DNA of 64,000 nt from Siphonodentalium dalli (Eukaryota > Mollusca > Scaphopoda > Gadilida > Siphonodentaliidae). This document shows positions 7,926-64,000 of the stretch, piece by piece (position 1 is the first letter of the stretch; each line of letters begins with the position of its first letter). Below the pieces are notes generated by a model. The model was not told the origin of the DNA. It made no database searches and saw nothing but the letters and a program-made list of their open reading frames with translations. The stretch is from NCBI GenBank assembly GCA_032622095.1, contig CP136062.1, positions 3,844,001 through 3,908,000 of the forward strand, written 5' to 3'. The position numbers were made by a program, and so were the translations under genes.

Positions 7926-7929
7926 TCTC

Positions 7930-16945: not shown

Positions 16946-16965
16946 GTCTACACTAATGGAGCCAC

Positions 16966-16985: not shown

Positions 16986-16989
16986 ATTA

Positions 16990-37610: not shown

Positions 37611-37980
37611 ACGTTACTAGGGGGTTGCCCGTCACAAAATGGCGGGTATATAAATGGTCTTTGTTACCTTCTAGTCTCCGCGGTCATGAACATATTTTCT
37701 CACTTTTTTTTTGTCGCTGAAAGCGCGAGGGAACAATTTATTTCACTACAAACTGTATGTGTACACCCAGCCCACATATGCGCATGCACATATTGAGCGA
37801 AACAAAATCAGCATATTACTTTAAATATTACTACATACTAACTGAAACATACTCAATTCGGGAGCCATTATTCGGCGACGAAGGGAGCTTGCGGCACAGT
37901 TTGACCATAAACGGACCCCATTTGGAGTATGTATTCAGCATGCAGCATAATGATCACATTATTTCAATAAAACTGTATTT

Positions 37981-38130
37981 TCTACGCCCCCCCCCCCAGA
38001 TCTCTCCCCAACCCACATATATTCATGCATATATGGAACGCAACAATCAAGATATTTTACTTTATTAAAATATATACTAACTGACACAGGCTCCATTATG
38101 TGGGTGGCCTTTATTTTGCGGGGGGGGGGC
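37981..38130. repeat. homopolymer tracts inside the cluster
   Basis: A C-run at about 37987-37996 and a G-run at about 38120-38128; comparable G-runs occur at 46269-46279. Confidence 0.6.
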
Positions 38131-39216
38131 TGCGGCCCCTTTGTGTGTATAAATGAAATCTTTTTCTATCTCATGTCTGACACAGCGAACCCCAATGTTG
38201 GTCGGCACCCGACAATAAAATGGCCATATCGCTTTGATATGATATGAAACATCGCGCGCTTCGTGCACATTTTTATTTTTTAAACATTCTTATCAGATTT
38301 GCACTCAACTGAAAGATTAAAAGAGCATTAATTAGCGTCGGCAAAGTTGTTTACACTGTATTATTAGTCCCGGTCCGGGAATGGTTTTCCTAACTGAGTT
38401 CCGGCGAATCTACTGAACGGTACCCACTGGCGGGAGGTCAGACAATGTCCATTCGCCATCTTCCGGATATACCTGTACTCCTTCGATTCCACACTCAATG
38501 CACACTTTCATATAAAAGAGAGAATTATGTACTTATGTTCACACCGAACTGGCAAATTGAAATACCATATATTAGCACCCATTCCCAAATATGTTAGAGC
38601 GTTCGAGTCTCGACTCTAGACACCAGCACATGCACTTCCACGACAAAATCAACATTTGTTAATTATATTCACACTGAACTTTAACTGACAAATTATTTAG
38701 CGCCTATTTCCAACAACGCGTTGGTCAGTAGAGCCCATGGAAGTTTCGTCTACAATAGCAAAGCAAGTGTCGGTTTTCGTGCGACGTCAATGACGTCATT
38801 TTGACAAACGTCATAAGAAATAGTGTCTATACTTGAGTGCAAATATTGCATTTGGGGACATGACGGGTATACATATGTTCTTTGTTACTTTCTAGTGTCC
38901 GCGGTCATGAACAAATTCTCATTTCTATATAAGAAATGCAATGGTCATGCTTCTCTTTATTGTCACTGAAAGCGCGAGGAAACACTTTATTTCATTAAAA
39001 CTGTATTTGTACACATACCCACCCCACATATACGCATGCACTTATTGAACAAAACAAAATCAGCATATTACTTTAAATATTACTAATACTAACTGAAACA
39101 TACTCAATTCGGGAGCGTTTATTCAGCGACGAAGAGGGCTTGCGCACATTTTGATCTTAAACGGATCCCCTTAGGGGCCAGAATTCAGCATGCAGCCTAA
39201 GGATCACAGGCCCATT

Positions 39217-39665
39217 TATGGAATCATATTAGGGCCATTTCCTAATAGCGCTTTCGGCGCGCGCCGAAACCGACAAAAAGTGCGCCATTAGTAACGCGCC
39301 GAAAGCGCCGAAAGCGACAAAAAGTGCGCCGAAAGCGACAAAAAGTGCGCTTTCGGCGCTTTTTGCGCGCGCCGAAACATACCCAAATGGCGCACTTTTT
39401 GTCGCTTCCGGCGCGCGCCATTAGGGAGTGGACCTAATAGTATGTCTAATGGCGCTTTCGGCGCGCGCCGAAAGCGACAAAAAGTGCGCCATTAGTAACG
39501 CGTTGAAAGCGACAAAAAGTGCGCCGAAAGAGACAAATAGTGCGCCGTAATGGCGCATATTTTGTCGCTTTCGGCGCTTCCGGCGCGTTACTAATGGCGC
39601 ACTTTTTGTCGCTTTCGGCGCGTGCCGAAAGCGCCATTAGGAAGTGGCCCTAATAGGATTCCATA
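39217..39665. mobile_element. 449-bp GC-rich palindromic MITE with target duplication
   Basis: Terminal inverted repeats start TATGGAATC, then A/C, then TATTAGGGCC at the left, and the right end is the complement (GGCCCTAATAGGATTCCATA). CCCATT flanks both sides (39211-39216, 39666-39671). Uninterrupted relatives of the target, reading GGCCCATTTGTATGAACAC, occur near 45395, 45750 and 46105, so the insertion point is defined by empty sites. The interior consists of direct and inverted copies of GCGCTTTCGGCGCGCGCC and GACAAAAAGTGCGCC, far richer in G+C than its surroundings. Confidence 0.85.
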
Positions 39666-39728
39666 CCCATTTGTGGGAACACATTATTTGACATAAAACT
39701 CTATTTTCTCCCCTCCCCTCTCCCCAAC

Positions 39729-39730
39729 CC

Positions 39731-39760
<30 letters not shown>
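39729..39760. repeat. AT microsatellite
   Basis: About 14 uninterrupted AT dinucleotides ending in GCATGCA. Confidence 0.85.
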
Positions 39761-39761
<1 letters not shown>

Positions 39762-40607
39762 TGCACACACAGAACGCAACAATCAAGCTATTTTACTTTA
39801 TTACCATATACTAACTGAATCAGGCTCTATTTAGCGATGGAGGGGCCTAACTGAAACAGGCTCTAGTTAGCGATGGGGGGACCTGCGGCCCCTTTGTGCG
39901 CTTACATTATATGACCTTCAACAGCGCGCGCTTCGCGCACATTTTGATCTTTTAAACATTCTTTCATCAGATTTACACTCAACTGAAACATTAAAAAAAC
40001 ATTAATTAGCGTGGGCAGTATTGTTTACACTGTATTAGTACCGGCTCGGGAATGTGGTTTTTCTAACCGAGTTCCGGCGAATCTACTGGACGGTATACCC
40101 ACTGACGGGAGGTCAGACTGTGTCCATTCGCCATCTTCCGCACAACTTTCATAACAAAGACAGCATTCTTTACGTATGTTTACACGAACTGGCAAATTAA
40201 AATACCATATTAGCACCCATTCCCAACGATGGTAGAGCATTCGAATTTCGACTCTACACCCACTACATGCACTTTCATGACAAAATCAACATTTGTTACT
40301 TCTATTCACACTCAACCTGAACTGACAAATTAATTTAGCGCCTATTTCCAACAACGCTGTTAGCGCGCATGGAAGTTTCGTCGATAATAGCAAAGCTAAT
40401 GTGGGTTTGCGTGCCACGTCACATGATGTCATTTCGACAAACGTCATAAGAAATAGTCTATATATACTTGAGTGCAAATACTGCATTTCGGGACCATGTT
40501 AGATCTCAGGTTTGCTTTGACCAATCGACTTGAAAGTTGGTGCGTCATCTTTTTCGACACAATATAGGCCGTGGTACAAATTTGGGCCACACACTCTTTA
40601 AAAAATA

Positions 40608-41000
40608 GGTACTTCAGAGTGCCTACGTAGGTACTAAGCTTTGTCCCAGGGGGAGTACCAACTGTTTGGTACTCTGGAGTACCAAAAGTGGTACTCTGGA
40701 GTACCAAAAGTTTAGGTACTCTAGAGTACCAATATGATTGGTACTCTGGATTACCTACTAAATATTTAGGTTCTATCCGGGCATTGTGCATATAATACCC
40801 ACCCTGCCTTTATGTCACCGAAGTCATGACGCACACGACATGAAGTGCCAAGAAATACACACCCATCATATTATATGAAGTACCGAATATAAAGACAGGT
40901 ACTCTGAAGTATTTAGGTACTATGCATAGTACCTAGCAATTTGGTACTCAACAGAACCAAACATATAGGTACTAAGCGGAGAACCTGCCCAGATACCAAG
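40608..41000. repeat. subterminal palindromic repeats, GGTACTCTGGAGTACC
   Basis: GGTACTCTGGAGTACC is a near-perfect palindrome and recurs at about 40669, 40691, 40715 and 40740, with looser GGTACT units to 41000. Related GTACCA/GGTACT units lie at the other end (44508-44610). Many transposases bind clustered subterminal repeats, which fits a transposon end. Confidence 0.7.
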
Positions 41001-41239
41001 CACTCGAAATTACGAAACATGGCCGACGGCAAATTAACAATGTGGCAATTTAGATTCCAAATGAAGCCATGGCGTTTAAACATTGAATAAAGTACAAAAC
41101 CACTCCATTACATAGTGATAATGAAATAATCCGAATTATACATGCATTACTTTTATTAGTAAATAACCTTGATCGTGATTTTGAACTTAAATCAAAGTTT
41201 AAGATCTAGATTTCAGGATTCCCTGTTCCCTGCATGTGG

Positions 41240-42600
41240 AGTAAAATTGGTCTGAATGTCCAAAAATAATTTCTTAATTTGTGTGCAATAATATTAAGTA
41301 AACATAAATCAAACATCTTGGAACTGGTCTGGATGAAACACCGATCGATCTAGAATAGCCCGATAAATAAAAAACTACCTTGCGATAAATCGCAAACCTT
41401 TGCGAATCGCAAACAACTTTGCAATAAATACCGGTATATGCGATTTAGTGTAAAGGTTTTCGATTGATTACAAAAGGTTTGCGATTAATCGCAATGGTTT
41501 GTGATTTATCGCAGATATATTTTCATGCATTGGCATTAATGGACTTGAACCATATAAATATAATCCGACATCTTCAACAGGTCTGGGTAAACCACCAATC
41601 GATCTATAATAGCATGGTTGGGCTAAAATAGACCGATCGTTCTTTGGCAGCAAGCATGTATGTGGGCTAAGGCGAGCAAACCTTCGCGATAAATCACAAA
41701 ACACTTTGCGAAAAATTACAAACACCTTTGCGATAACTCACAAACCTTTACGATAAATCTCAAACATCTTTACGAGGACTCTCAGACTGCGTAGTGGGTG
41801 ATTAAATTTTGTGAATTATCGCAAACATGTTTGAGATTTGTGGCAAACTTTTTTGGTGCTAAAAATGTCTTAATTTGTGTGTAAATATTATAAATCAGCC
41901 ATATTGAACATGTCTCAGTGAACAACCTATTAATTTATAATTGAACGGTCGGGCTAAAATAGACCGATCAGTCATTCACGGCCAGATGCAAGAATGTTGA
42001 GAGGAGGAAAACTTTGCGAAAAATCACAAAAACTTTCGCGATAACACGCAAACCATTACGATAAATCTCAAACATCTTTACGATAAATCTCAGACTGCGT
42101 ACTGTGTTAATAAAAAATTTTATCTATCGCAAAGATGTTTGAGATTTGTCGCAAAGGTTTTTTTTGCACTAATGGGCTTCTGTGAATATTATAAATCAGA
42201 CATCTTAAACAGGTCTGAGTGAACAACCTATCAATCTATGCCCGGTCGGACTAAAATAGACCGATCAGTCATTCACAGCCAGATGCATGAGTGATGAGGG
42301 AGCAAACCTTTGCGATAACACACAAACCATTACGATAAATCTCAAACATCTTTATGATAACTCTCAGACTACGTACTGGGCGATTATATTTTTGCGATTT
42401 ATCGCAAAGATGTTTGAGATTTGTCGCAAAGGCTTTTTGCCGATAATGGGCTTCTGTGAACATTATAAATCAGACATATTAAACATGTCTGAGTGACCAA
42501 CCTATAAATCTATAATTGCCCGGACATTCACAGCCAAGGGAGCAAATCTTTGCGATAACTCCCAAACCTTTGTAAATAGTGTGCGATAAGCAAAATACTC
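41240..42600. repeat. tandem repeat of ~300 bp rich in TTTGCGATAAATCGCAAA
   Basis: The block (GGGCTAAAATAGACCGATC, TCATTCACAGCCAGATGCA, GAGCAAACCTTTGCGATAA, ATCTCAAACATCTTTACGA, GATTTATCGCAAAGATGTTT) recurs with GGCTAAAATA at 41621, 41952 and 42249 and a partial unit to 42590. Intervals are 331, 297 and about 277 bp. It carries the same palindromic motif as 30895-31165 and lies inside the nested 4.0-kb element. Confidence 0.75.
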
Positions 42601-44340
42601 AAAAATCGGGAGACCATTAACTTTGGTTAATTAAAACTGTTGTTTGAAAAATACCGCTATAGCGCTCACTAGTCCTCGCTACAAGAGGTGTTGAATGGGT
42701 TACCAGAATTATTATCACTCTCCCAAAAAAATTGCCACGGTGTTCAGTGTTTTGCTTATCGTACACTTACAATGCGCTGTATCAGTAAATGAACAAATAC
42801 TAAGATACATGTAACACAAAAAGAGTTTAATGTATTTAATATATGATAAAGTTTGGTAAAGCCATAGGTAATAAATTATTCTCCATTCGCATCTATGCGT
42901 CAACAAGTCAGTGGCATTGCCTGATCACCAGAGCCATATAATGTAGAATTTCGCTAATATGGTTTCCAGTTATGAATGAGGTTATTTCCTAGCAAAGCGG
43001 AAATGGCCGAATCGCTCAGATTGATAACCACACATGTAGCCAGACATGTTTTGATAAGAACATGAAGCATCTGGACATTGGAATGGTCTACATGTTCGTG
43101 TATGTATACAGCTAAGCTCTAATTGACCCCTCCCCCTTAATGACATATGGCCATCGATATTACGAGTAGTTGCGAATGTCGGTCAGTGACCAACTTTGAA
43201 TGTTAATTAAACCGTAAACAAATTATTAATTGAAATATTGTTTTGTGTATAGTTAATATGGTGCATGGCGCTGATGAAAAGCTGGACTGGGTGTTTACAA
43301 GGTGTCCATGTAAAAAAGTAGTGCGACGTACAGTGGTCGCAAAATATTATTAATAAGACTGTATAAAGATTATCTGCGGTTGCCACATACGGTATCAACC
43401 ACTTGACCATGGTTGAACGGCGGTATGGTATAACCGGTGTCTGACTGTCATTAACGCCCTACAACCTTGTTAAAGGGGTGATTAATTAGAGCATAGCTGT
43501 AGTACGTTACTAAAAGCTTGCGATTGATTCAGTTATAACGTGTGTCCCTGAATTGGATCCATATCTCCGAGATTATCCACCATTCCATAAATATATCAGA
43601 ACAATATAATAGCATCACAGGCGTTTCGATCAAAAGAATAGCAGAAACAGTAACTGGGCGACATGTCATCGCGACATGGTTCTTAAATCACGTTTCGATG
43701 AAAATTGAAGAATATGATCCGTCGTCCTTTGCACAGGTACTTGTACGTTGTAGCCATCAAACTTGTTACTGACTCAGGAGTCATGACTGATCTGTGACGT
43801 CATAACTCTGATTAATTTCTACAGAATTGGATGTCTCGTAATCATAGTCACCAGTGGTTGACTCTTGTGAGTTAATTGGGCGGTTTATAATGTTGTGAAA
43901 CTTAAGTATCTGTCTTTAGTAATTCACAATACTTTTGTGTCGTGCATGTATTAAACCACACTGCACTCAATGACTTTTCAATGGTCTAGCTCAGTTCACC
44001 GAAAATAATGTAAACGCCCGTTATTTTTTCGGAGGTTATATATCATCTTGTCCCGTCCATGTACAACCATAATCCACACAGTGCTGACAATATTCCAGGT
44101 TATTGCGAAGCCAGTTAGGTCCAATTTCACACACACAAAAATATGTTGATGCATTTCAGAGAAGTTACTTCCCTAATCTTAAATCGACCCAGCGAGCGAA
44201 CAACGTACCTAAACTGGCATATACTACAACATGTAAGCCCCGTCCGATCCCAACATAAAATGTCTAAGTCTGATGTTTGTTTGTCTCTTCGTCCATGTTT
44301 ATATACTGTAAAAAATCTCAATCGTATCAACTTGAAGTGG
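42601..44340. other. interior of the nested element, no gene seen
   Basis: Open frames of up to 87 codons have no recognisable domain. No transposase motif visible. Confidence 0.4.
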
Positions 44341-44357
44341 CTGGACGCCGCCATTTT

Positions 44358-44480
44358 ATCGAGATCGCCTAGTACCAAATGAATTACCACGTGATGCCAT
44401 CACGTGGGTAACACTTGGGTACCGAGATCGCGCTAGTGCCAAATGAATTATCACGTGATGCCATCACGTGGCTACTATTC
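44358..44480. repeat. 64-bp tandem duplication with CACGTG palindromes
   Basis: CACGTGATGCCATCACGTG occurs at 44388 and 44452, each preceded by GAGATCGC and GTACCAAATGAATT-type sequence. Each copy has two CACGTG hexamers (canonical E-box) in a palindrome. It lies about 145 bp from the right end of the nested element. Confidence 0.8.
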
Positions 44481-45390
44481 AGGTTCCGAGAGTGGATAGT
44501 ACCAACATGGTGTGGTACTATATCAATTTTTAGAAACAAATTCTTCTCAATACCTGTTGGTCTGGTACTATCAGACATATTGGCACTACCTTAGTACCTA
44601 TATGGCTTATTATTTATAAGTGTGCATTACACGCATGGTTGAAAAGTTATAAACGCGCCAAATGCGTGACCGAGTTATACACAGAGAGACATACACACAG
44701 ACACAGACGACGCGTTATATATATATAGACTAGGGGGTTGCCCGTCACAAAATGACGGGTATATAAATTTTCTTTGTTATTTTCTAGTGTCCGCGTTCAT
44801 GGACACATGGAATGGTCATGCTTCTCCTTTGTGTTACTGAATACGCGTTGGAACACTTGATTTCACTAAAACTGTATTTCTACACACCCAGTCCACATGT
44901 GCGCATGTACATATTGAACGAAACAAAATCAGTATATTATTTAAATACTATGCACCAACTGAAACATACTCAATTCAGGAGCCTACATTCGGGAGCTTGC
45001 TTCACATTTTGAACGGACCCCCTTTGGAACCTGTATTCAGCATGCATGTCGCCTAATGATCACACGCCTGCACTGCGCGGCCCGTTTGTATGAACACTTT
45101 ATTTCAATAAAACTGTATTTTTACCCCCACCACCATCTCCCCAATCATGTATATGCATGCACATATGGAACGCAACAATCAAAATATTTTACTTTATCTA
45201 TACTAACTGAAACAGGCTCAATTCGGAATCTTTATTTAGAGGGGGAGGGGCCTACAACCCCTTGCTGCGCTTCGCGCACATTATATGATCTTAAACTGCG
45301 TGAGCTTCGCGCACATACAGGGAGCTTGCAGCACATTCTAAACGGACCCTTTATTCAACATGTAGCCTATTGATCACACGCCCTGCACTG

Positions 45391-46455
45391 CGTGGCCCAT
45401 TTGTATGAACACTTTATTTCAATAAAACTGTATTTTTGCCTCCACCACCATCTCCCCAACCCACGTATATGCATGCACGCATATGGAACGCAACAATCAA
45501 TATATTTTACTTAATCTATACTAACTGAAACAGGCTCAATTCGGAACCTTTATTTAGCAGGGGAGGGGCCTGCAGCCCCTTTGTGAGCTTCGCGCACATT
45601 ATATGAATTTAAACTGCGTGCGCTTTGCGCATTGTGATCTTTTAAACATTTATTCTTGTATCAGATTTGCACTCAACCGAAAGATTAAAAGAGCATTAAT
45701 TAGCGTCGGCAGTATAGTGTTTACACTGTAGGCCCTATTATTAGGCGTGGCCCATTTGTATGAACACTTTATTTCAATAAAACTGTATTTTTGCCTCCAC
45801 CACCATCTCCCCAACCCACGTATATGCATGCACGCATATGGAACGCAACAATCAATATATTTTACTTAATCTATACTAACTGAAACAGGCTCAATTCGGA
45901 ACCTTTATTTAGCAGGGGAGGGGCCTGCAGCCCCTGTGTGAGCTTCGCGCACATTATATGAATTTAAACTGCGTGCGCTTTGCGCATTGTGATCTTTTAA
46001 ACATTTATTCTTGTATCAGATTTGCACTCAACCGAAAGATTAAAAGAGCATTAATTAGCGTCGGCAGTATAGTGTTTACACTGTAGGCCCTATTATTAGG
46101 CGTGGCCCATTTGTATGAACACTTTATTTCAATAAAACTGTATTTTTGCCCCCACCATCATCTCCCCAACCCACGTATATGCATGCACATATATGGAACG
46201 CAACAATCAAGATATTTTACTTAATCTATACTAACTGAAACAGGCTCAATTCGGAACCTTTATTTAGCGGGGGGGGGGGGTTCTGCAGCCCCTTTGTGAG
46301 CTTCGCGCACATTATATGAATTTAAACTGCGTGCGCTTCGCGCATTGTGATCTTTTAAACATTTATTCATGTATCAGATTTGCACTCAACCGAAAGATTA
46401 AAAGAGCATTAATTAGCGTCGGCAGTATTGTTTACACTGTAGGCCCTATTATTAG
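45391..46455. repeat. exact-period tandem triplication, 355-bp unit
   Basis: CGTGGCCCATTTGTATGAAC starts at 45391, 45746 and 46101, so the period is 355 bp twice. Units differ at only a few positions (CCCCTTTGTGAG against CCCCTGTGTGAG; CTCCACCACC against CCCCACCATC; GCAGGGGAGG against a G-run), so this part of the cluster was amplified recently. Confidence 0.9.
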
Positions 46456-47124
46456 GCCTGTCCCGGGAATGTGCTTTTTCCAACTGAGTTCCGGCGAATT
46501 TACTGAGTTCACGGTACCCACTGGGTACCGCTTACCCACGTGTATACCGGTACTCCTTCGATTCCACACTCAATGCACAATTTTCGTATCAAAGACAGCA
46601 TTCTTTACTTATGTTCAAACCCAACTGGGAAATTAAAATACCATATTAGCACCCATTCCCAACGACGAACGTTCGAGTCTTGGATCTGCACACCACTACA
46701 TCCACCCATTCCCAACGACGGTAGAACGTTCGAGTCTTGACACTACACCCCACTATACATGCACTTCTGCGACAAAATCAACATGCGTTACCTAAATTCA
46801 CACTGAACCTGAACTGACACATTAATTCCCAACAACGCTTTGGTAGAGCGCATGGAAGTTTCGCCTACAACAGCAAATCAAGTGTTGGTTTGCGTTCTAC
46901 GTCAATGACGTCATTTCGACAAACGTCATAAGAAATAGTGTCTACTTGAGTGCAAATGCTGCATTTGGGGAGCATGTTAGATCTCAGGATTGCTTTAACC
47001 AATCGGCGTGAAATTTGGTGAGTCACCTTTTATGACACACTATAGATCGGGGTACAAATTTGGGCCACATTGGACGCATGGTTGAAAAGTTATAAACGCG
47101 CCAAAAGCGTGACCGAGTTATACA

Positions 47125-47155
47125 CACACACACAGATACACACACACACAGACGA
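47125..47155. repeat. CA microsatellite at element end
   Basis: ACACACACACACAGATACAC-type repeat just before the junction of the second and third full units; a longer equivalent is at 49106-49147. Confidence 0.75.
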
Positions 47156-48115
47156 CGGGTTTTATATATATAGACTAGGGGGTTGCCCGTCACAAAATGA
47201 CTGGTATATAAATGTGCTTTGTTATTGTCTAGTGTCCGCTTTCATGGACACATGGAATTGTCATGCTTCTCTTTTTTTTGTTACTGGATGCACGTTAAAG
47301 GAACACTTTATTTAACTAAAATTGTATTTCTACGCACCAGTCTACATATATGCGCATGCACATATTGAACGAAACAAAATCAGTATATTATTTAAATACT
47401 ACGATGCACCGACTGAAACATACTCAATTCAGGAGCCTTCATTCGGGATCTTGTTGCACATTTTGAACGGACCCACTTTGGAACCTGTATTCCGCATGCC
47501 GCCTAATTGTCACACGCCTGCACTGTGCGGTCCATTTGTATGAACACTTTTCAATAAAAGTGTATGTTTTACCCCCACCCCATCTCCCCAACCCATGTAT
47601 ATGCATGCACATATGGAACGCAACAATCAAAATATTGTACTTTATCTATACTGAAACAGGCTCAATTCGAGAGACTTTATTTAGCGGTGGGGGGTCTACA
47701 GCCCCTTTCTGCGCATCGTGCACATTATATGATCTTAAACTGCGTAAGCTTCGTGCACATATATATAGGGAGCTTGCAGCACATTTTAAACGGACTCCCT
47801 TTGGAAGCTGTGTTCAGCATGCAGCCTATAATGATCACACGCCCTGCACTGCGCGGCCCATTTGTATGAACACTTTATTTCAATAAAACTATATTTCTGC
47901 CCCCACAATCATCTCCCCAACCCACGTAGGCTATATATGCAGGCACATATGGAACGCAACAATCAAGATATTTTACTTTATCTATAGGGCACACTAACTG
48001 AAGCAGGCTCTATTCGGAACCTTTATTTAGCGGGGGGCCTGCAGCCCCTTAGTGAGCTTCGCGCACATTACATGAATTTAAACTGCGTGCGCTTCGCGCA
48101 CATTGTGATCTTTTA

Positions 48116-48375
48116 AACATTTATTCTTTTATCAGATTTGCACTCAACCGAAAGATTAAAAGAACATTAATTAGCATCGGTTTGGCGAGTTCACGGTACC
48201 CACTGGATCCCACTGGCAGGAGGACTGTTCATTCGCCATCTTCCGTGTATACCGGTACTCCTTCGATACCACACTCAATGCACAACTTTCGTATCAAAGA
48301 CAGCATTATTATTCTTTTATCAGATTTTCACTCAACCGAAAGATTAAAAGAACATTAATTAGCGTCGCAGTATTG
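48116..48375. repeat. internal partial duplication, ~195 bp apart
   Basis: TTTATCAGATTT(G/T)CACTCAA, CCGAAAGATTAAAAGAACAT and TAATTAGC occur at 48127 and again at 48317 within the third unit. Confidence 0.7.
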
Positions 48376-49105
48376 TTTCCACTGTAGGCCCTATTATTAG
48401 GCCTGTCCCGGGAATGTGATTTTTCTAACTCAGTTTGGCGAATTTACTGAGTTCACGGTACCCACTGGCGGGAGGCCAGACTGTCCATTCGCCATCTTCC
48501 GTGTATACCGGTACTCCTTCGATACTACATTCAAGGCACAACTTTCGTATCAAAGACAGCATTATTTACTTATGTTCAAACCCAACTGGCGAATTAAAAT
48601 AGAATCAAAATACCATATTAGAACCCATGCCCAACGACGAACGTTCGAGTCTTGACTCTGCACCCCACCTGGGTCCCCACTACACCCACCCATTCCCAAT
48701 GACGGTAGAACGTTCGAGTCTTGACTCTACACCCCACTGTACATGCACTTCCGCGACAAAATCAACATTCGTTACCTAAATTCACACTGAACCTGAACTG
48801 ACACATTAATTTCCAACAACGCTTTGGTAGAGCGCATGGAAGTTTCGCCTACAATAGCAAAGCAAGTGTTGGTTTGCGTTCGACGTCAATGACGTCATTT
48901 CGACTAACGTCATAATAAATAGTGTCTACTTGAGTGCAAATGCTGTATTTGGGGAGCATGTTAGATCTCAGGTTTGCTTTGACCAATCGTCGTGAAATTT
49001 GGTGAGTCCGCTTTTATGACACACGGTAGGCCGTGGTACAAATTTGGGCCACATTGGACGCATGGGTAAAAAGTTATAACCGCGTCAAAAGCGTGACCGA
49101 GTTAT

Positions 49106-49147
49106 ACACACACACACAGATACACAGATACACACACACACACACAG
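49106..49147. repeat. CA/GATACA microsatellite
   Basis: ACACACACACAGATACACAG and further CA repeats close to the right end of the cluster. Confidence 0.8.
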
Positions 49148-49177
49148 ACGACGGGTTTTATATATATAGATAACGTT

Positions 49178-50163
49178 GTGTACAAAGCGCAAAGGTACCT
49201 CTGAGAATCGTAACCAAGAACAAAACAACACATGCACGGTTGTAGATACCATTTTGTGCGACATAATTATGTGACCACATCCCATAATATGACTGTCATT
49301 TAAATTTTGCGATGTACAGCAGCCAGAGAAGAGACGTCCTTTTGTGATGCTTTGCGCTGGATGCGTTGTTGAAGTGCCAGAAGTGTTCAACAACCGTTCA
49401 AATGGTTTGTTTGTTCGCTCTAGTGCTGGTAGTTAATTGAAAGTATCACGCGATAAGTTAACTTTGCAATAATAATAGAAAACTTAATCAGATTTCGCCA
49501 AGCGAAATCTGAAAGTTTTCATGAAGGTAACTCGCATGATATCCGTATACATATGAAGCTGTATTATTGTGTCCTGTATATAGTTCGTTACCTAAAAATA
49601 ATATTAGAGCACGCGCTTAACGTAACGTAAAGTGGCACTCTCGTTAGGAAAAGGCGCAATACAAACCTTTTACATATTGGTCAGATTGTGTATCTTAACC
49701 AATCAGATTTGACGTTGCATTGACATGGTTGTTGCTACGCCTTGTAGTTCAAATACAGAAACCACCACATCATCGTTAGTATTTCCACAAATTACCCATT
49801 ACCACACAACAAACGGATGAGATGAAAGCTATATATACATAGACGATGAGTGATCTAACTAAACATAGAACTTCACATCTTGTTTCGGACGGAAAAATGT
49901 CACCAAAACACTTCTTTTACTGTGATTTGAGGCTTCCGTTATTTGACTTGGCACATTTACTGTGGACTTGGTCAAGTTTGTGTTTGACATTTTGACAGTC
50001 TCAAACTCTGAGTCTTTGTTATTGTCGTTCATGTTTCAATGAATGATTTACTGTAAGTTATCTTGGTTAGCTAACTGGATCATAGGTACCATCAGCTGAA
50101 TGAATTAAATCGCAAAAAGAGTCCAATTTATCAAGTATCCACAGTCTCTGTTCCCACTCCAAC
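49178..50163. other. unique spacer between the element cluster and the satellite
   Basis: No gene seen. A perfect small hairpin, CAGATTTCGC / GCGAAATCTG with loop CAA, lies at 49491-49513. About 49690-49810 resembles 19800-19950 (AACCAATCAGATTT, then ATTTCCACAAATTACC), marking a dispersed repeat. Confidence 0.5.
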
Positions 50164-51630
50164 GCTTAACAACAGTCGTCATTAGCGAAGACCGAAACAT
50201 ATATATCAAAGCTTAACAACAGTCGTCATTAGCGAAGACCGAAACATATATATCAAAGCTTAACAACAGTCGTCATTAGCGAAGACCGAAACAAATATAT
50301 CAAAGCTTAACAACAGTCGTCATTAGCGAAGACCGAAACAAATATATCAAAGCTTAACAACAGTCGTCATTAGCGAAGACCGAAACAAATATATCAAAGC
50401 TTAACAACAGTCGTCATTAGCGAAGACCGAAACAAATATATCAAAGCTTAACAACAGTCGTCATTAGCGAAGACCGAAACAAATATATCAAAGCTTAACA
50501 ACAGTCGTCATTAGCGAAGACCGAAACAAATATATCAAAGCTTAACAACAGTCGTCATTAGCGAAGACCGAAACAAATATATCAAAGCTTAACAACAGTC
50601 GTCATTAGCGAAGACCGAAACAAATATATCAAAGCTTAACAACAGTCGTCATTAGCGAAGACCGAAACAAATATATCAAAGCTTAACAACAGTCGTCATT
50701 AGCGAAGACCGAAACAAATATATCAAAGCTTAACAACAGTCGTCATTAGCGAAGACCGAAACAAATATATCAAAGCTTAACAACAGTCGTCATTAGCGAA
50801 GACCGAAACAAATATATCAAAGCTTAACAACAGTCGTCATTAGCGAAGACCGAAACAAATATATCAAAGCTTAACAACAGTCGTCATTAGCGAAGACCGA
50901 AACATATATATCAACGCTTAACAACAGTCGTCATTAGCGAAGACCGAAACATATATATCAAAGCTTAACAACAGTCGTCATTAGCGAAGACCGAAACAAA
51001 TATATCAAAGCTTAACAACAGTCGTCATTAGCGAAGACCGAAACAAATATATCAAAGCTTAACAACAGTCGTCATTAGCGAAGACCGAAACAAATATATC
51101 AAAGCTTAACAACAGTCGTCATTAGCGAAGACCGAAACATATATATCAACGCTTAACAACAGTCGTCATTAGCGAAGACCGAAACATATATATCAAAGCT
51201 TAACAACAGTCGTCATTAGCGAAGACCGAAACAAATATATCAAAGCTTAACAACAGTCGTCATTAGCGAAGACCGAAACAAATATATCAAAGCTTAACAA
51301 CAGTCGTCATTAGCGAAGACCGAAACAAATATATCAAAGCTTAACAACAGTCGTCATTAGCGAAGACCGAAACAAATATATCAAAGCTTAACAACAGTCG
51401 TCATTAGCGAAGACCGAAACATATATATCAAAGCTTAACAACAGTCGTCATTAGCGAAGACCGAAACAAATATATCAAAGCTTAACAACAGTCGTCATTA
51501 GCGAAGACCGAAACAAATATATCAAAGCTTAACAACAGTCGTCATTAGCGAAGACCGAAACAAATATATCAAAGCTTAACAACAGTCGTCATTAGCGAAG
51601 ACCGAAACAAATATATCAAAGCTTAACAAC

Positions 51631-54600
51631 ATTAGCGAAGACCGAAACAAATATATCCAAAGCTTAACAACAGTCGTCATTAGCGAAGACCGAAACAAAT
51701 ATATCAAAGCTTAACAACAATTGTCATTAGCGAAGACCGAAACATATATATCAAAGCTTAACAACAGTCGTCATTAGCGAAGACCGAAACAAATATATCA
51801 AAGCTTAACAACAGTCGTCATTAGCGAAGACCGAAACAAATATATCAAAGCTTAACAACAGTCGTCATTAGCGAAGACCGAAACAAATATATCAAAGCTT
51901 AACAACATTAGCGAAGACCGAAACAAATATATCCAAAGCTTAACAACAGTCGTCATTAGCGAAGACCGAAACAAATATATCAAAGCTTAACAACAATTGT
52001 CATTAGCGAAGACCGAAACATATATATCAAAGCTTAACAACAGTCGTCATTAGCGAAGACCGAAACAAATATATCAAAGCTTAACAACAGTCGTCATTAG
52101 CGAAGACCGAAACAAATATATCAAAGCTTAACAACAGTCGTCATTAGCGAAGACCGAAACAAATATATCAAAGCTTAACAACAGTCGTCATTAGCGAAGA
52201 CCGAAACATATATATCAAAGCTTAACAACAGTCGTCATTAGCGAAGACCGAAACAAATATATCAAAGCTTAACAACAGTCGTCATTAGCGAAGACCGAAA
52301 CAAATATATCAAAGCTTAACAACAGTCGTCATTAGCGAAGACCGAAACAAATATATCAAAGCTTAACAACAGTCGTCATTAGCGAAGACCGAAACAAATA
52401 TATCAAAGCTTAACAACAGTCGTCATTAGCGAAGACCGAAACAAATATATCAAAGCTTAACAACAGTCGTCATTAGCGAAGACCGAAACAAATATATCAA
52501 AGCTTAACAACAGTCGTCATTAGCGAAGACCGAAACAAATATATCAAAGCTTAACAACATTAGCGAAGACCGAAACAAATATATCCAAAGCTTAACAACA
52601 GTCGTCATTAGCGAAGACCGAAACAAATATATCAAAGCTTAACAACAATTGTCATTAGCGAAGACCGAAACATATATATCAAAGCTTAACAACAGTCGTC
52701 ATTAGCGAAGACCGAAACAAATATATCAAAGCTTAACAACAGTCGTCATTAGCGAAGACCGAAACAAATATATCAAAGCTTAACAACAGTCGTCATTAGC
52801 GAAGACCGAAACAAATATATCAAAGCTTAACAACATTAGCGAAGACCGAAACAAATATATCCAAAGCTTAACAACAGTCGTCATTAGCGAAGACCGAAAC
52901 AAATATATCAAAGCTTAACAACAATTGTCATTAGCGAAGACCGAAACATATATATCAAAGCTTAACAACAGTCGTCATTAGCGAAGACCGAAACAAATAT
53001 ATCAAAGCTTAACAACAGTCGTCATTAGCGAAGACCGAAACAAATATATCAAAGCTTAACAACAGTCGTCATTAGCGAAGACCGAAACAAATATATCAAA
53101 GCTTAACAACAGTCGTCATTAGCGAAGACCGAAACATATATATCAAAGCTTAACAACAGTCGTCATTAGCGAAGACCGAAACAAATATATCAAAGCTTAA
53201 CAAAAGTCGTCATTAGCGAAGACCGAAACATATATATCAAAGCTTAACAACAGTCGTCATTAGCGAAGACCGAAACAAATATATCAAAGCTTAACAACAA
53301 TTGTCATTAGCGAAGACCGAAACATATATATCAAAGCTTAACAACAGTCGTCATTAGCGAAGACCGAAACAAATATATCAAAGCTTAACAACAGTCGTCA
53401 TTAGCGAAGACCGAAACAAATATATCAAAGCTTAACAACAGTTGTCATTAGCGAAGACCGAAACAAATATATCAAAGCTTAACAACAGTCGTCATTAGCG
53501 AAGACCGAAACATATATATCAAAGCTTAACAACAGTCGTCATTAGCGAAGACCGAAACAAATATATCAAAGCTTAACAACAATTGTCATTAGCGAAGACC
53601 GAAACATATATATCAAAGCTTAACAACAGTCGTCATTAGCGAAGACCGAAACAAATATATCAAAGCTTAACAACAGTCGTCATTAGCGAAGACCGAAACA
53701 AATATATCAAAGCTTAACAACAGTTGTCATTAGCGAAGACCGAAACAAATATATCAAAGCTTAACAACAGTCGTCATTAGCGAAGACCGAAACATATATA
53801 TCAAAGCTTAACAACAGTCGTCATTAGCGAAGACCGAAACAAATATATCAAAGCTTAACAACAGTCGTCATTAGCGAAGACCGAAACAAATATATCAAAG
53901 CTTAACAACAGTTGTCATTAGCGAAGACCGAAACAAATATATCAAAGCTTAACAAAAGTCGTCATTAGCGAAGACCGAAACAAATATATCAAAGCTTAAC
54001 AACAGTCGTCATTAGCGAAGACCGAAACAAATATATCAAAGCTTAACAACAGTCGTCATTAGCGAAGACCGAAACAAATATATCAAAGCTTAACAACAGT
54101 TGTCATTAGCGAAGACCGAAACAAATATATCAAAGCTTAACAACAGTCGTCATTAGCGAAGACCGAAACAAATATATCAAAGCTTAACAACAGTCGTCAT
54201 TAGCGAAGACCGAAACAAATATATCAAAGCTTAACAACAGTCGTCATTAGCGAAGACCGAAACAAATATATCAAAGCTTAACAACAGTCGTCATTAGCGA
54301 AGACCGAAACATATATATCAAAGCTTAACAACAGTCGTCATTAGCGAAGACCGAAACAAATATATCAAAGCTTAACAACAGTCGTCATTAGCGAAGACCG
54401 AAACATATATATCAACGCTTAACAACAGTCGTCATTAGCGAAGACCGAAACATATATATCAAAGCTTAACAACAGTCGTCATTAGCGAAGACCGAAACAA
54501 ATATATCAAAGCTTAACAACAGTCGTCATTAGCGAAGACCGAAACAAATATATCAAAGCTTAACAACAGTCGTCATTAGCGAAGACCGAAACAAATATAT

Positions 54601-54896
54601 CAAAGCTTAACAACAGTCGTCATTAGCGAAGACCGAAACAAATATATCAAAGCTTAACAACAGTCGTCATTAGCGAAGACCGAAACATATATATCAAAGC
54701 TTAACAACAGTCGTCATTAGCGAAGACCGAAACAAATATATCAAAGCTTAACAACAGTCGTCATTAGCGAAGACCGAAACAAATATATCAAAGCTTAACA
54801 ACAGTCGTCATTAGCGAAGACCGAAACAAATATATCAAAGCTTAACAACAGTCGTCATTAGCGAAGACCGAAACAAATATATCAAAGCTTAACAAC
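51631..54896. repeat. higher-order unit, early relative with 68-monomer offset
   Basis: Short-monomer pairs start at 51631 and 52559. The pair at 52559 matches 55731 and the rare ACAAAAGTCG variant at 53952 matches 57124 at a common offset of 3172 bp, which is 68 monomers after allowing for four short ones. It lacks the third short pair and the CATTAACGAA variant found in the later units. Confidence 0.75.
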
Positions 54897-57800
54897 ATTA
54901 GCGAAGACCGAAACAAATATATCCAAAGCTTAACAACAGTCGTCATTAGCGAAGACCGAAACAAATATATCAAAGCTTAACAACAATTGTCATTAGCGAA
55001 GACCGAAACATATATATCAAAGCTTAACAACAGTCGTCATTAGCGAAGACCGAAACAAATATATCAAAGCTTAACAACAGTCGTCATTAGCGAAGACCGA
55101 AACAAATATATCAAAGCTTAACAACAGTCGTCATTAGCGAAGACCGAAACAAATATATCAAAGCTTAACAACATTAGCGAAGACCGAAACAAATATATCC
55201 AAAGCTTAACAACAGTCGTCATTAGCGAAGACCGAAACAAATATATCAAAGCTTAACAACAATTGTCATTAGCGAAGACCGAAACATATATATCAAAGCT
55301 TAACAACAGTCGTCATTAGCGAAGACCGAAACAAATATATCAAAGCTTAACAACAGTCGTCATTAGCGAAGACCGAAACAAATATATCAAAGCTTAACAA
55401 CAGTCGTCATTAGCGAAGACCGAAACAAATATATCAAAGCTTAACAACAGTCGTCATTAGCGAAGACCGAAACATATATATCAAAGCTTAACAACAGTCG
55501 TCATTAGCGAAGACCGAAACAAATATATCAAAGCTTAACAACAGTCGTCATTAGCGAAGACCGAAACAAATATATCAAAGCTTAACAACAGTCGTCATTA
55601 GCGAAGACCGAAACAAATATATCAAAGCTTAACAACAGTCGTCATTAGCGAAGACCGAAACAAATATATCAAAGCTTAACAACAGTCGTCATTAGCGAAG
55701 ACCGAAACAAATATATCAAAGCTTAACAACATTAGCGAAGACCGAAACAAATATATCCAAAGCTTAACAACAGTCGTCATTAGCGAAGACCGAAACAAAT
55801 ATATCAAAGCTTAACAACAATTGTCATTAGCGAAGACCGAAACATATATATCAAAGCTTAACAACAGTCGTCATTAGCGAAGACCGAAACAAATATATCA
55901 AAGCTTAACAACAGTCGTCATTAGCGAAGACCGAAACAAATATATCAAAGCTTAACAACAGTCGTCATTAGCGAAGACCGAAACAAATATATCAAAGCTT
56001 AACAACATTAGCGAAGACCGAAACAAATATATCCAAAGCTTAACAACAGTCGTCATTAGCGAAGACCGAAACAAATATATCAAAGCTTAACAACAATTGT
56101 CATTAGCGAAGACCGAAACATATATATCAAAGCTTAACAACAGTCGTCATTAGCGAAGACCGAAACAAATATATCAAAGCTTAACAACAGTCGTCATTAG
56201 CGAAGACCGAAACAAATATATCAAAGCTTAACAACAGTCGTCATTAGCGAAGACCGAAACAAATATATCAAAGCTTAACAACAGTCGTCATTAGCGAAGA
56301 CCGAAACATATATATCAAAGCTTAACAACAGTCGTCATTAGCGAAGACCGAAACAAATATATCAAAGCTTAACAACAGTCGTCATTAGCGAAGACCGAAA
56401 CATATATATCAAAGCTTAACAACAGTCGTCATTAGCGAAGACCGAAACAAATATATCAAAGCTTAACAACAATTGTCATTAGCGAAGACCGAAACATATA
56501 TATCAAAGCTTAACAACAGTCGTCATTAGCGAAGACCGAAACAAATATATCAAAGCTTAACAACAGTCGTCATTAGCGAAGACCGAAACAAATATATCAA
56601 AGCTTAACAACAGTTGTCATTAGCGAAGACCGAAACAAATATATCAAAGCTTAACAACAGTCGTCATTAGCGAAGACCGAAACATATATATCAAAGCTTA
56701 ACAACAGTCGTCATTAGCGAAGACCGAAACAAATATATCAAAGCTTAACAACAATTGTCATTAGCGAAGACCGAAACATATATATCAAAGCTTAACAACA
56801 GTCGTCATTAGCGAAGACCGAAACAAATATATCAAAGCTTAACAACAGTCGTCATTAGCGAAGACCGAAACAAATATATCAAAGCTTAACAACAGTTGTC
56901 ATTAGCGAAGACCGAAACAAATATATCAAAGCTTAACAACAGTCGTCATTAGCGAAGACCGAAACATATATATCAAAGCTTAACAACAGTCGTCATTAGC
57001 GAAGACCGAAACAAATATATCAAAGCTTAACAACAGTCGTCATTAACGAAGACCGAAACAAATATATCAAAGCTTAACAACAGTTGTCATTAGCGAAGAC
57101 CGAAACAAATATATCAAAGCTTAACAAAAGTCGTCATTAGCGAAGACCGAAACAAATATATCAAAGCTTAACAACAGTCGTCATTAGCGAAGACCGAAAC
57201 AAATATATCAAAGCTTAACAACAGTCGTCATTAGCGAAGACCGAAACAAATATATCAAAGCTTAACAACAGTTGTCATTAGCGAAGACCGAAACAAATAT
57301 ATCAAAGCTTAACAACAGTCGTCATTAGCGAAGACCGAAACAAATATATCAAAGCTTAACAACAGTCGTCATTAGCGAAGACCGAAACAAATATATCAAA
57401 GCTTAACAACAGTCGTCATTAGCGAAGACCGAAACAAATATATCAAAGCTTAACAACAGTCGTCATTAGCGAAGACCGAAACATATATATCAAAGCTTAA
57501 CAACAGTCGTCATTAGCGAAGACCGAAACAAATATATCAAAGCTTAACAACAGTCGTCATTAGCGAAGACCGAAACAAATATATCAAAGCTTAACAACAG
57601 TCGTCATTAGCGAAGACCGAAACAAATATATCAAAGCTTAACAACAGTCGTCATTAGCGAAGACCGAAACAAATATATCAAAGCTTAACAACATTAGCGA
57701 AGACCGAAACAAATATATCCAAAGCTTAACAACAGTCGTCATTAGCGAAGACCGAAACAAATATATCAAAGCTTAACAACAATTGTCATTAGCGAAGACC

Positions 57801-58761
57801 GAAACATATATATCAAAGCTTAACAACAGTCGTCATTAGCGAAGACCGAAACAAATATATCAAAGCTTAACAACAGTCGTCATTAGCGAAGACCGAAACA
57901 AATATATCAAAGCTTAACAACAGTCGTCATTAGCGAAGACCGAAACAAATATATCAAAGCTTAACAACATTAGCGAAGACCGAAACAAATATATCCAAAG
58001 CTTAACAACAGTCGTCATTAGCGAAGACCGAAACAAATATATCAAAGCTTAACAACAATTGTCATTAGCGAAGACCGAAACATATATATCAAAGCTTAAC
58101 AACAGTCGTCATTAGCGAAGACCGAAACAAATATATCAAAGCTTAACAACAGTCGTCATTAGCGAAGACCGAAACAAATATATCAAAGCTTAACAACAGT
58201 CGTCATTAGCGAAGACCGAAACAAATATATCAAAGCTTAACAACAGTCGTCATTAGCGAAGACCGAAACAAATATATCAAAGCTTAACAACAGTCGTCAT
58301 TAGCGAAGACCGAAACATATATATCAAAGCTTAACAACAGTCGTCATTAGCGAAGACCGAAACAAATATATCAAAGCTTAACAACAGTCGTCATTAGCGA
58401 AGACCGAAACATATATATCAAAGCTTAACAACAGTCGTCATTAGCGAAGACCGAAACAAATATATCAAAGCTTAACAACAATTGTCATTAGCGAAGACCG
58501 AAACATATATATCAAAGCTTAACAACAGTCGTCATTAGCGAAGACCGAAACAAATATATCAAAGCTTAACAACAGTCGTCATTAGCGAAGACCGAAACAA
58601 ATATATCAAAGCTTAACAACAGTTGTCATTAGCGAAGACCGAAACAAATATATCAAAGCTTAACAACAGTCGTCATTAGCGAAGACCGAAACATATATAT
58701 CAAAGCTTAACAACAGTCGTCATTAGCGAAGACCGAAACAAATATATCAAAGCTTAACAAC
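54897..58761. repeat. higher-order satellite unit A, 3865 bp, 83 monomers
   Basis: Contains short-monomer pairs beginning at 54897, 55731 and 57693, each pair spaced 276 bp. Six short monomers (6 bp shorter) in 83 give exactly 83 x 47 - 36 = 3865 bp, the observed distance to the next unit. Rare variants CATTAACGAA (57041) and CAAAAG (57125) lie inside. Confidence 0.88.
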
Positions 58762-61700
58762 ATTAGCGAAGACCGAAACAAATATATCCAAAGCTTAACA
58801 ACAGTCGTCATTAGCGAAGACCGAAACAAATATATCAAAGCTTAACAACAATTGTCATTAGCGAAGACCGAAACATATATATCAAAGCTTAACAACAGTC
58901 GTCATTAGCGAAGACCGAAACAAATATATCAAAGCTTAACAACAGTCGTCATTAGCGAAGACCGAAACAAATATATCAAAGCTTAACAACAGTCGTCATT
59001 AGCGAAGACCGAAACAAATATATCAAAGCTTAACAACATTAGCGAAGACCGAAACAAATATATCCAAAGCTTAACAACAGTCGTCATTAGCGAAGACCGA
59101 AACAAATATATCAAAGCTTAACAACAATTGTCATTAGCGAAGACCGAAACATATATATCAAAGCTTAACAACAGTCGTCATTAGCGAAGACCGAAACAAA
59201 TATATCAAAGCTTAACAACAGTCGTCATTAGCGAAGACCGAAACAAATATATCAAAGCTTAACAACAGTCGTCATTAGCGAAGACCGAAACAAATATATC
59301 AAAGCTTAACAACAGTCGTCATTAGCGAAGACCGAAACATATATATCAAAGCTTAACAACAGTCGTCATTAGCGAAGACCGAAACAAATATATCAAAGCT
59401 TAACAACAGTCGTCATTAGCGAAGACCGAAACAAATATATCAAAGCTTAACAACAGTCGTCATTAGCGAAGACCGAAACAAATATATCAAAGCTTAACAA
59501 CAGTCGTCATTAGCGAAGACCGAAACAAATATATCAAAGCTTAACAACAGTCGTCATTAGCGAAGACCGAAACAAATATATCAAAGCTTAACAACATTAG
59601 CGAAGACCGAAACAAATATATCCAAAGCTTAACAACAGTCGTCATTAGCGAAGACCGAAACAAATATATCAAAGCTTAACAACAATTGTCATTAGCGAAG
59701 ACCGAAACATATATATCAAAGCTTAACAACAGTCGTCATTAGCGAAGACCGAAACAAATATATCAAAGCTTAACAACAGTCGTCATTAGCGAAGACCGAA
59801 ACAAATATATCAAAGCTTAACAACAGTCGTCATTAGCGAAGACCGAAACAAATATATCAAAGCTTAACAACATTAGCGAAGACCGAAACAAATATATCCA
59901 AAGCTTAACAACAGTCGTCATTAGCGAAGACCGAAACAAATATATCAAAGCTTAACAACAATTGTCATTAGCGAAGACCGAAACATATATATCAAAGCTT
60001 AACAACAGTCGTCATTAGCGAAGACCGAAACAAATATATCAAAGCTTAACAACAGTCGTCATTAGCGAAGACCGAAACAAATATATCAAAGCTTAACAAC
60101 AGTCGTCATTAGCGAAGACCGAAACAAATATATCAAAGCTTAACAACAGTCGTCATTAGCGAAGACCGAAACATATATATCAAAGCTTAACAACAGTCGT
60201 CATTAGCGAAGACCGAAACAAATATATCAAAGCTTAACAACAGTCGTCATTAGCGAAGACCGAAACATATATATCAAAGCTTAACAACAGTCGTCATTAG
60301 CGAAGACCGAAACAAATATATCAAAGCTTAACAACAATTGTCATTAGCGAAGACCGAAACATATATATCAAAGCTTAACAACAGTCGTCATTAGCGAAGA
60401 CCGAAACAAATATATCAAAGCTTAACAACAGTCGTCATTAGCGAAGACCGAAACAAATATATCAAAGCTTAACAACAGTTGTCATTAGCGAAGACCGAAA
60501 CAAATATATCAAAGCTTAACAACAGTCGTCATTAGCGAAGACCGAAACATATATATCAAAGCTTAACAACAGTCGTCATTAGCGAAGACCGAAACAAATA
60601 TATCAAAGCTTAACAACAATTGTCATTAGCGAAGACCGAAACATATATATCAAAGCTTAACAACAGTCGTCATTAGCGAAGACCGAAACAAATATATCAA
60701 AGCTTAACAACAGTCGTCATTAGCGAAGACCGAAACAAATATATCAAAGCTTAACAACAGTTGTCATTAGCGAAGACCGAAACAAATATATCAAAGCTTA
60801 ACAACAGTCGTCATTAGCGAAGACCGAAACATATATATCAAAGCTTAACAACAGTCGTCATTAGCGAAGACCGAAACAAATATATCAAAGCTTAACAACA
60901 GTCGTCATTAACGAAGACCGAAACAAATATATCAAAGCTTAACAACAGTTGTCATTAGCGAAGACCGAAACAAATATATCAAAGCTTAACAAAAGTCGTC
61001 ATTAGCGAAGACCGAAACAAATATATCAAAGCTTAACAACAGTCGTCATTAGCGAAGACCGAAACAAATATATCAAAGCTTAACAACAGTCGTCATTAGC
61101 GAAGACCGAAACAAATATATCAAAGCTTAACAACAGTTGTCATTAGCGAAGACCGAAACAAATATATCAAAGCTTAACAACAGTCGTCATTAGCGAAGAC
61201 CGAAACAAATATATCAAAGCTTAACAACAGTCGTCATTAGCGAAGACCGAAACAAATATATCAAAGCTTAACAACAGTCGTCATTAGCGAAGACCGAAAC
61301 AAATATATCAAAGCTTAACAACAGTCGTCATTAGCGAAGACCGAAACATATATATCAAAGCTTAACAACAGTCGTCATTAGCGAAGACCGAAACAAATAT
61401 ATCAAAGCTTAACAACAGTCGTCATTAGCGAAGACCGAAACAAATATATCAAAGCTTAACAACAGTCGTCATTAGCGAAGACCGAAACAAATATATCAAA
61501 GCTTAACAACAGTCGTCATTAGCGAAGACCGAAACAAATATATCAAAGCTTAACAACATTAGCGAAGACCGAAACAAATATATCCAAAGCTTAACAACAG
61601 TCGTCATTAGCGAAGACCGAAACAAATATATCAAAGCTTAACAACAATTGTCATTAGCGAAGACCGAAACATATATATCAAAGCTTAACAACAGTCGTCA

Positions 61701-62626
61701 TTAGCGAAGACCGAAACAAATATATCAAAGCTTAACAACAGTCGTCATTAGCGAAGACCGAAACAAATATATCAAAGCTTAACAACAGTCGTCATTAGCG
61801 AAGACCGAAACAAATATATCAAAGCTTAACAACATTAGCGAAGACCGAAACAAATATATCCAAAGCTTAACAACAGTCGTCATTAGCGAAGACCGAAACA
61901 AATATATCAAAGCTTAACAACAATTGTCATTAGCGAAGACCGAAACATATATATCAAAGCTTAACAACAGTCGTCATTAGCGAAGACCGAAACAAATATA
62001 TCAAAGCTTAACAACAGTCGTCATTAGCGAAGACCGAAACAAATATATCAAAGCTTAACAACAGTCGTCATTAGCGAAGACCGAAACAAATATATCAAAG
62101 CTTAACAACAGTCGTCATTAGCGAAGACCGAAACAAATATATCAAAGCTTAACAACAGTCGTCATTAGCGAAGACCGAAACATATATATCAAAGCTTAAC
62201 AACAGTCGTCATTAGCGAAGACCGAAACAAATATATCAAAGCTTAACAACAGTCGTCATTAGCGAAGACCGAAACATATATATCAAAGCTTAACAACAGT
62301 CGTCATTAGCGAAGACCGAAACAAATATATCAAAGCTTAACAACAATTGTCATTAGCGAAGACCGAAACATATATATCAAAGCTTAACAACAGTCGTCAT
62401 TAGCGAAGACCGAAACAAATATATCAAAGCTTAACAACAGTCGTCATTAGCGAAGACCGAAACAAATATATCAAAGCTTAACAACAGTTGTCATTAGCGA
62501 AGACCGAAACAAATATATCAAAGCTTAACAACAGTCGTCATTAGCGAAGACCGAAACATATATATCAAAGCTTAACAACAGTCGTCATTAGCGAAGACCG
62601 AAACAAATATATCAAAGCTTAACAAC
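58762..62626. repeat. higher-order satellite unit B, 3865 bp, 83 monomers
   Basis: Short pairs at 58762, 59596 and 61558 and the rare variants at 60906 and 60990 are each displaced by exactly 3865 bp from unit A. The match breaks near 62615, where unit A continues into a short monomer but this unit reads AACAACAATTGTC. After it the array (62627-64000) has only full-length monomers. Confidence 0.88.
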
Positions 62627-64000
62627 AATTGTCATTAGCGAAGACCGAAACATATATATCAAAGCTTAACAACAGTCGTCATTAGCGAAGACCGAAACAA
62701 ATATATCAAAGCTTAACAACAGTCGTCATTAGCGAAGACCGAAACAAATATATCAAAGCTTAACAACAGTTGTCATTAGCGAAGACCGAAACAAATATAT
62801 CAAAGCTTAACAACAGTCGTCATTAGCGAAGACCGAAACATATATATCAAAGCTTAACAACAGTCGTCATTAGCGAAGACCGAAACAAATATATCAAAGC
62901 TTAACAACAGTCGTCATTAGCGAAGACCGAAACAAATATATCAAAGCTTAACAACAGTTGTCATTAGCGAAGACCGAAACAAATATATCAAAGCTTAACA
63001 ACAGTCGTCATTAGCGAAGACCGAAACAAATATATCAAAGCTTAACAACAGTCGTCATTAGCGAAGACCGAAACAAATATATCAAAGCTTAACAACAGTC
63101 GTCATTAGCGAAGACCGAAACAAATATATCAAAGCTTAACAACAGTCGTCATTAGCGAAGACCGAAACAAATATATCAAAGCTTAACAACAGTTGTCATT
63201 AGCGAAGACCGAAACAAATATATCAAAGCTTAACAACAGTCGTCATTAGCGAAGACCGAAACAAATATATCAAAGCTTAACAACAGTCGTCATTAGCGAA
63301 GACCGAAACAAATATATCAAAGCTTAACAACAGTTGTCATTAGCGAAGACCGAAACAAATATATCAAAGCTTAACAACAGTCGTCATTAGCGAAGACCGA
63401 AACAAATATATCAAAGCTTAACAACAGTCGTCATTAGCGAAGACCGAAACAAATATATCAAAGCTTAACAACAGTCGTCATTAGCGAAGACCGAAACAAA
63501 TATATCAAAGCTTAACAACAGTTGTCATTAGCGAAGACCGAAACAAATATATCAAAGCTTAACAACAGTCGTCATTAGCGAAGACCGAAACAAATATATC
63601 AAAGCTTAACAACAGTCGTCATTAGCGAAGACCGAAACAAATATATCAAAGCTTAACAACAGTTGTCATTAGCGAAGACCGAAACAAATATATCAAAGCT
63701 TAACAACAGTCGTCATTAGCGAAGACCGAAACAAATATATCAAAGCTTAACAACAGTCGTCATTAGCGAAGACCGAAACAAATATATCAAAGCTTAACAA
63801 CAGTCGTCATTAGCGAAGACCGAAACAAATATATCAAAGCTTAACAACAGTTGTCATTAGCGAAGACCGAAACAAATATATCAAAGCTTAACAACAGTTG
63901 TCATTAGCGAAGACCGAAACAAATATATCAAAGCTTAACAACAGTTGTCATTAGCGAAGACCGAAACAAATATATCAAAGCTTAACAACAGTTGTCATTA

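Follow-up and report, generated by a model that had tools for sequence, protein, structure and literature searches.

The right-hand part of a 64,000-bp stretch of the genome of the scaphopod mollusc Siphonodentalium dalli (GenBank assembly GCA_032622095.1, contig CP136062.1, positions 3,844,001 to 3,908,000 of the forward strand; the whole stretch is hereafter called the window) is occupied by a 47-bp satellite DNA array, within which a block of 83 monomers occurs twice in tandem without a single mismatch. Tandem Repeats Finder placed the 47-bp array from position 50160 to the window end. Cutting the array at a fixed anchor, from the first monomer at 50164, yielded 280 monomers of 47 bp, 16 of 41 bp, and one cut by the window end. 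These belong to sequence types A (192 monomers), B (31), C (25), D (23), E (16, all of 41 bp), F and G (3 each), H (2), I (1), and J (1), the latter being the truncated monomer. Differences between the 47-bp types and type A are confined to sites 10, 12, 14, 22, 37, and 47 of the monomer. The array is composed of eight 47-bp types that differ at these six sites and of one 41-bp type, E, which in our reading derives from a 7-base deletion plus one inserted C. Only one singleton sequence type was found among the 296 complete monomers. All four combinations of sites 14 and 37, and likewise of sites 10 and 37, are present among the 47-bp monomers, which is consistent with exchange within monomers or with recurrent mutation. 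The array displays two features of satellite DNA, namely a long head-to-tail arrangement of near-identical monomers and a non-coding sequence. A coding function was ruled out, as the longest open stretch in six frames spans only 44 codons.

Table 1. Features of the 47-bp array (window positions; letters in monomer words are sequence types, and a slash marks a join)
Feature	Position	Strand	Description
47-bp satellite array	50164..64000	+	297 monomers of 10 sequence types, the last of them truncated
Left edge of the array	50164..50868	+	15 monomers: BB, then 13 identical type-A monomers
Older imperfect copy, at a lag of 3266, of the block starting at 54370	51104..54369	+	Two monomer substitutions, a two-monomer length change, and a different right boundary
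6-monomer (282-bp) tandem ACAADB ACAADB	53242..53805	+	In the older copy; the word pair is present in units A and B too
First copy of the exact match	54830..58762	+	Includes unit A (83 monomers, 3865 bp), taken to begin with the E monomer at 54887
18-monomer, 834-bp sub-block of unit A	54887..55720	+	Lies in a tandem duplication whose exact match spans 880 bp (54689 vs 55523)
68-bp identity tract holding the duplication junction	58695..58762	+	Monomer word DBA/EACA, once in the array
Second copy of the exact match	58695..62627	+	Includes unit B (3865 bp), beginning with the E monomer at 58752

The two copies of the exact match are identical over 3933 bp at a lag of 3865 bp. Each of them holds one unit of 83 monomers (77 x 47 + 6 x 41 = 3865 bp), and the comparison between units A and B returned 0 mismatches over 3865 positions, which sets the 95% upper limit of their divergence at 0.00078 per site. 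Seven monomer types (A, B, C, D, E, G, and H) are found inside one unit, and the window holds two exact copies only. An earlier note on this DNA had described an exact unit of this same length and monomer count, and our count agrees with it. The span given there, from 54897 to 62626, was right although slightly understated, as the exact run reaches 67 bp further to the left and 1 bp further to the right. The five pairs of positions on which that description was built all point to matching monomers with an offset of exactly 3865 bp. Three of them (54897/58762, 55731/59596, and 57693/61558) lie in type-E monomers, which start at 54887/58752, 55721/59586, and 57683/61548, respectively. The pair 57041/60906 lies inside type-H monomers (57025/60890), whose variant base is monomer site 22 (57046/60911), while the pair 57125/60990 lies inside type-G monomers (57119/60984), whose variant base is monomer site 10 (57128/60993). 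The 276-bp pairing of the short monomers was also recovered throughout, with the E monomers of the array forming eight pairs, each spaced 276 bp (8/8).

The exact match exceeds the length of the unit by 68 bp, and the join between the two units must therefore lie within this tract of identity. The word that spans it, DBAEACA, has a single occurrence in the array (58611). Meanwhile, both outer joins of the duplicated segment are of kinds found elsewhere: the left one, BAAAA/EACA (54652), recurs at 51386, 57448, and 61313, and the right one, DBA/CAAD (62476), recurs at 53430, 56602, and 60467. Two of the three recurrences in each set are the unit A and unit B copies of each other, so that two are independent. 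Since the outer joins recur in the array, removing one unit leaves only joins that are seen elsewhere, which is the mark of a duplication in place. In addition, identity at the 3865-bp lag is 98.2% in the 500 bp that precede the exact run, as expected for in-register pairing.

The longest repeated monomer string in the array spans 84 monomers. No shuffle of the monomer order reached this length (0/1000, maximum of 23), nor did any of the sequences generated by Markov chains of orders 1 to 5 (0/5000, 1000 for each order, with maxima of 22, 30, 34, 47, and 80), adding up to 0/6000 simulated arrays. The order-5 maximum of 80 is near the observed 84, but those chains had been trained on an array that already contains the duplication. 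Training used the array without its truncated monomer and, since the DDD terminus acts as an absorbing state, without its two final D monomers. The Markov null that was originally used, which had maxima of 19, 291, 35, and 117 at orders 1, 2, 3, and 5, was replaced, and the spuriously long repeats that it produced at orders 2 and 5 were ascribed to this same absorbing state. The order of monomers in the array is not random.

The exact duplication is superimposed on a series of other repeats. When split at its E pairs, unit A is composed of blocks of 18, 42, and 23 monomers (834 + 1962 + 1069 = 3865 bp). The blocks of 18 and 42 monomers are repeated in unit B, in which the third block continues into the right-hand region. 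The exact match of 880 bp that involves the 18-monomer sub-block is longer than its 834-bp step, and therefore this step is itself a tandem duplication. The older copy located upstream differs from the block starting at 54370 by an I in place of a B, an A in place of an H, and two extra A monomers. Type H is present in both units, while the older copy has none, with AADG replacing AHDG. After position 62627, the array continues with no restart of the unit order; the sequence of types is CAADBAADAAAADAADAAADAADAAADDD, in which 563 bp match exactly at a lag of 7 monomers (329 bp). The nesting proposed by the earlier note is real, but it goes beyond the two levels described there, since levels of 6 (276 or 282 bp), 18 (834 bp), and 83 monomers are found along with the older copy at lag 3266. 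The proposed label of higher-order repeat is also strained. Units A and B are indeed more alike between them (identical) than are the distinct monomers within them, but instead of many tandem copies the window holds two exact ones, which amounts to one event. What the window shows is one exact duplication atop older nested ones, and not a run of higher-order units.

The start of the array is abrupt (50155-50210), with fully canonical monomers, and no increase of variants was observed toward the left edge (50164..50868). The bases CAAC that precede the GCTT of the first monomer are the same as the last bases of the rare F variant, which would be the outcome of a cut inside an F monomer; this likeness involves four bases only. 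The right part of the array (62758-64000) turns D-rich with the 7-monomer lag and runs past the window end.

We consider a recent block duplication by unequal exchange to be the best reading of these data, because the units show zero mismatches, the single new junction lies within 68 bp of identity, and the outer joins are of kinds found elsewhere. We assign a probability of about 0.8 to the array being non-coding eukaryote satellite DNA that was grown and homogenised by homologous exchange between misaligned repeats, with unequal exchange as the last event. Either sister chromatids or homologues would have taken part in this event, displaced in register by 83 monomers, equivalent to 3865 bp.

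Several observations weigh against unequal exchange. Without gaps, identity at lag 3865 drops in the left flank to 77.4% over 1000 bp and to 56.1% over 2000 bp, and the 500 bp that follow the exact run show 31% identity; in our reading of this ungapped comparison, the drops reflect changes of register caused by the E monomers, which are 6 bp shorter. Furthermore, the same sequence would result if break-induced or template-switch replication had misaligned in this way, or if a circle had been reinserted in register. In a toy model in which blocks were duplicated or deleted and mutations were rare, with four mutation settings of 60 runs each, short blocks (mean of about 6 monomers) never produced exact tandem units of at least 83 monomers (0/240). 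In support of the process, such units did emerge in 4/240 runs with log-uniform block sizes and in 21/240 runs with uniform block sizes up to 120 monomers, an upper limit that was our own choice, so these results depend on the parameters. At the mutation setting nearest to the make-up of the array, the counts were 0/60, 3/60, and 7/60 for short, log-uniform, and uniform blocks, respectively. Under this model, block duplication and deletion would suffice only if shifts as large as 83 monomers are allowed. Finally, zero mismatches in 3865 positions is also the outcome of a duplicated contig piece, and both copy number and junction are known here from the assembly alone.

These last points would be accounted for if one real 3865-bp unit had been written twice during assembly. 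We find this unlikely. The identity at the junction is only 68 bp long, which in our judgement is a short overlap for a false join of long reads, the clean consensus (one singleton type in 296 complete monomers) suggests accurate reads, and similar duplications, older and smaller, are present in the same array. It had also been proposed that the second copy derives from a rolling circle, in which case a 3865-bp circle would have been excised, replicated, and reinserted. Reinsertion elsewhere is expected to create a new outer junction, and none was seen: there is a single new junction, and each of the two outer joins has three counterparts of its kind in the array. There are also two copies only, and PMC2543021 reports having found no rolling-circle intermediates of satellite circles in its system. 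This route is very improbable in our view and not needed, whereas the other half of that proposal, a recent block duplication by unequal exchange, is retained on the grounds of the zero mismatches, the one new junction, and the known outer joins. Units A and B could, lastly, open a longer series of 3865-bp units that would recur past position 64000 as a true higher-order repeat array. The continuation of the 47-bp array past the window end and the older imperfect copy of the block upstream are in agreement with this, but no third unit adjoins unit B and the order of monomers after 62627 proceeds without a restart, so we give this possibility hardly any credence.

Neither known RNAs nor related sequences were detected in our searches. 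No Rfam family reached its gathering score in the window, and no tRNA was found in it by ARAGORN (bacterial code). Sequence searches covered phage records, viral contigs, and prokaryote genome contigs, with plasmids, E. coli genomes, and metagenome contigs falling outside their scope. Distant blastn of 611 bp returned no match among phage records, an exact 27-base pattern had 0 matches in viral contigs, and an exact 22-base pattern had 0 matches in prokaryote genome contigs. The lack of monomer matches in phage, viral, and prokaryote sequences is as expected, because the organism is a eukaryote. Elsewhere in the window, the only monomer-like pieces were matches of 11 to 17 bases, with E-values of 1.4 or worse. 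A CENP-B box (NTTCGNNNNANNCGGGN motif) was considered and rejected: on both strands of the type-A monomer, the only type scanned, the best match covered 6 of the 9 fixed bases, and 188 of 500 shuffled monomers reached at least 6. In the published literature, exact text matching of four 19- to 20-base strings of the monomer returned nothing, which is weak evidence, and no paper was found on 47-bp satellite DNA with a higher-order repeat.

A 417-codon open frame on the minus strand (15758-17011) matched both fucosyltransferase (family 10) domains, with E-values of 1.6e-43 and 1e-20, and may represent an intact single-exon fucosyltransferase gene. It was the only match in a protein-family scan of 7 of the 59 listed open frames, the other 6 having none. 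The left 50 kb of the window contain many diverged repeats. The window also holds a 355-bp repeat in three copies at 97% identity (45390-46464), inside a region of related, diverged direct repeats (37616-49170), and mid-length tandem arrays at 29409-30332 (209 bp x 4.4) and 35024-35830 (164 bp x 5.0). An inverted repeat of about 0.58 kb (7772-8347 and 9658-10316) shows 78% identity over 580 bp, with one 136-bp piece at 97%. Its arms hold short tandem repeats and may be the ends of a foldback-like element.

The nesting had been described as unusual for so short a monomer, a claim that is unsupported in light of DYZ1, VicTR-B, and cervid satellite I. DYZ1 is a human satellite 3 whose 3.6-kb unit is described, in the title of a cited reference, as pentanucleotides arrayed in tandem, and changes in the size of its array have been attributed to unequal crossover or conversion (PMC4022460). 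Judged by these descriptions and not by sequence, it resembles the S. dalli array in that a very short monomer is nested in a multi-kb tandem unit, although DYZ1 arrays are estimated at 7-98 Mb, compared with two unit copies here. VicTR-B of Vicia grandiflora has a monomer of similar length (38 bp) and a minor subfamily with a small higher-order unit, a 186-bp repeat of five monomers (PMC2543021); this is a plant satellite, and the text of that source drawn on here reports no 83-monomer unit. The satellite I of cervids (deer) also has short subrepeats within a longer unit, in this case of 31 bp in about 0.9 kb, yet these subrepeats are described as varying substantially within and between species (PMC7835801). 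In the cascading alpha-satellite higher-order repeats of human chromosome 15, nested periods occur within the unit (PMC11050224). As in the array described here, one monomer type recurs inside the unit and the periods of subfragments are nested in the main period, although that account concerns monomers of about 171 bp and 429 copies of a 15-monomer unit, against 47-bp monomers and two copies. Among the mechanisms of satellite homogenisation, a review lists unequal crossing-over, transposition, reinsertion of replicated extrachromosomal forms, and gene conversion (PMC5615363). Short monomers nested in multi-kb units are already known, and our finding is real but ordinary.

The history of the array can be tentatively reconstructed from its nested repeats. 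The 6-monomer duplications would have come first, followed by a duplication of 18 to 20 monomers and then by the block copy at lag 3266. The mutation that gave rise to type H would have appeared later, as would the 23-monomer block that carries the third E pair, in either order, and the exact 3865-bp duplication would have closed the series. Because both exact units carry H and the older copy lacks it, the simplest reading is that this mutation falls between the two duplications. The succession of ever larger duplications (6, 18, and 83 monomers), with hardly any mutation between them and no rise of variants at the left edge, leads us to raise, as a doubtful possibility, that the satellite may be in an early burst in which the size of exchanges grows with the length of the array. 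Nothing points to a function other than that of bulk satellite DNA. These findings point to ordinary satellite evolution and add no new mechanism to it; their value is that the array of S. dalli provides a clean and readable case of array growth by nested block duplication.
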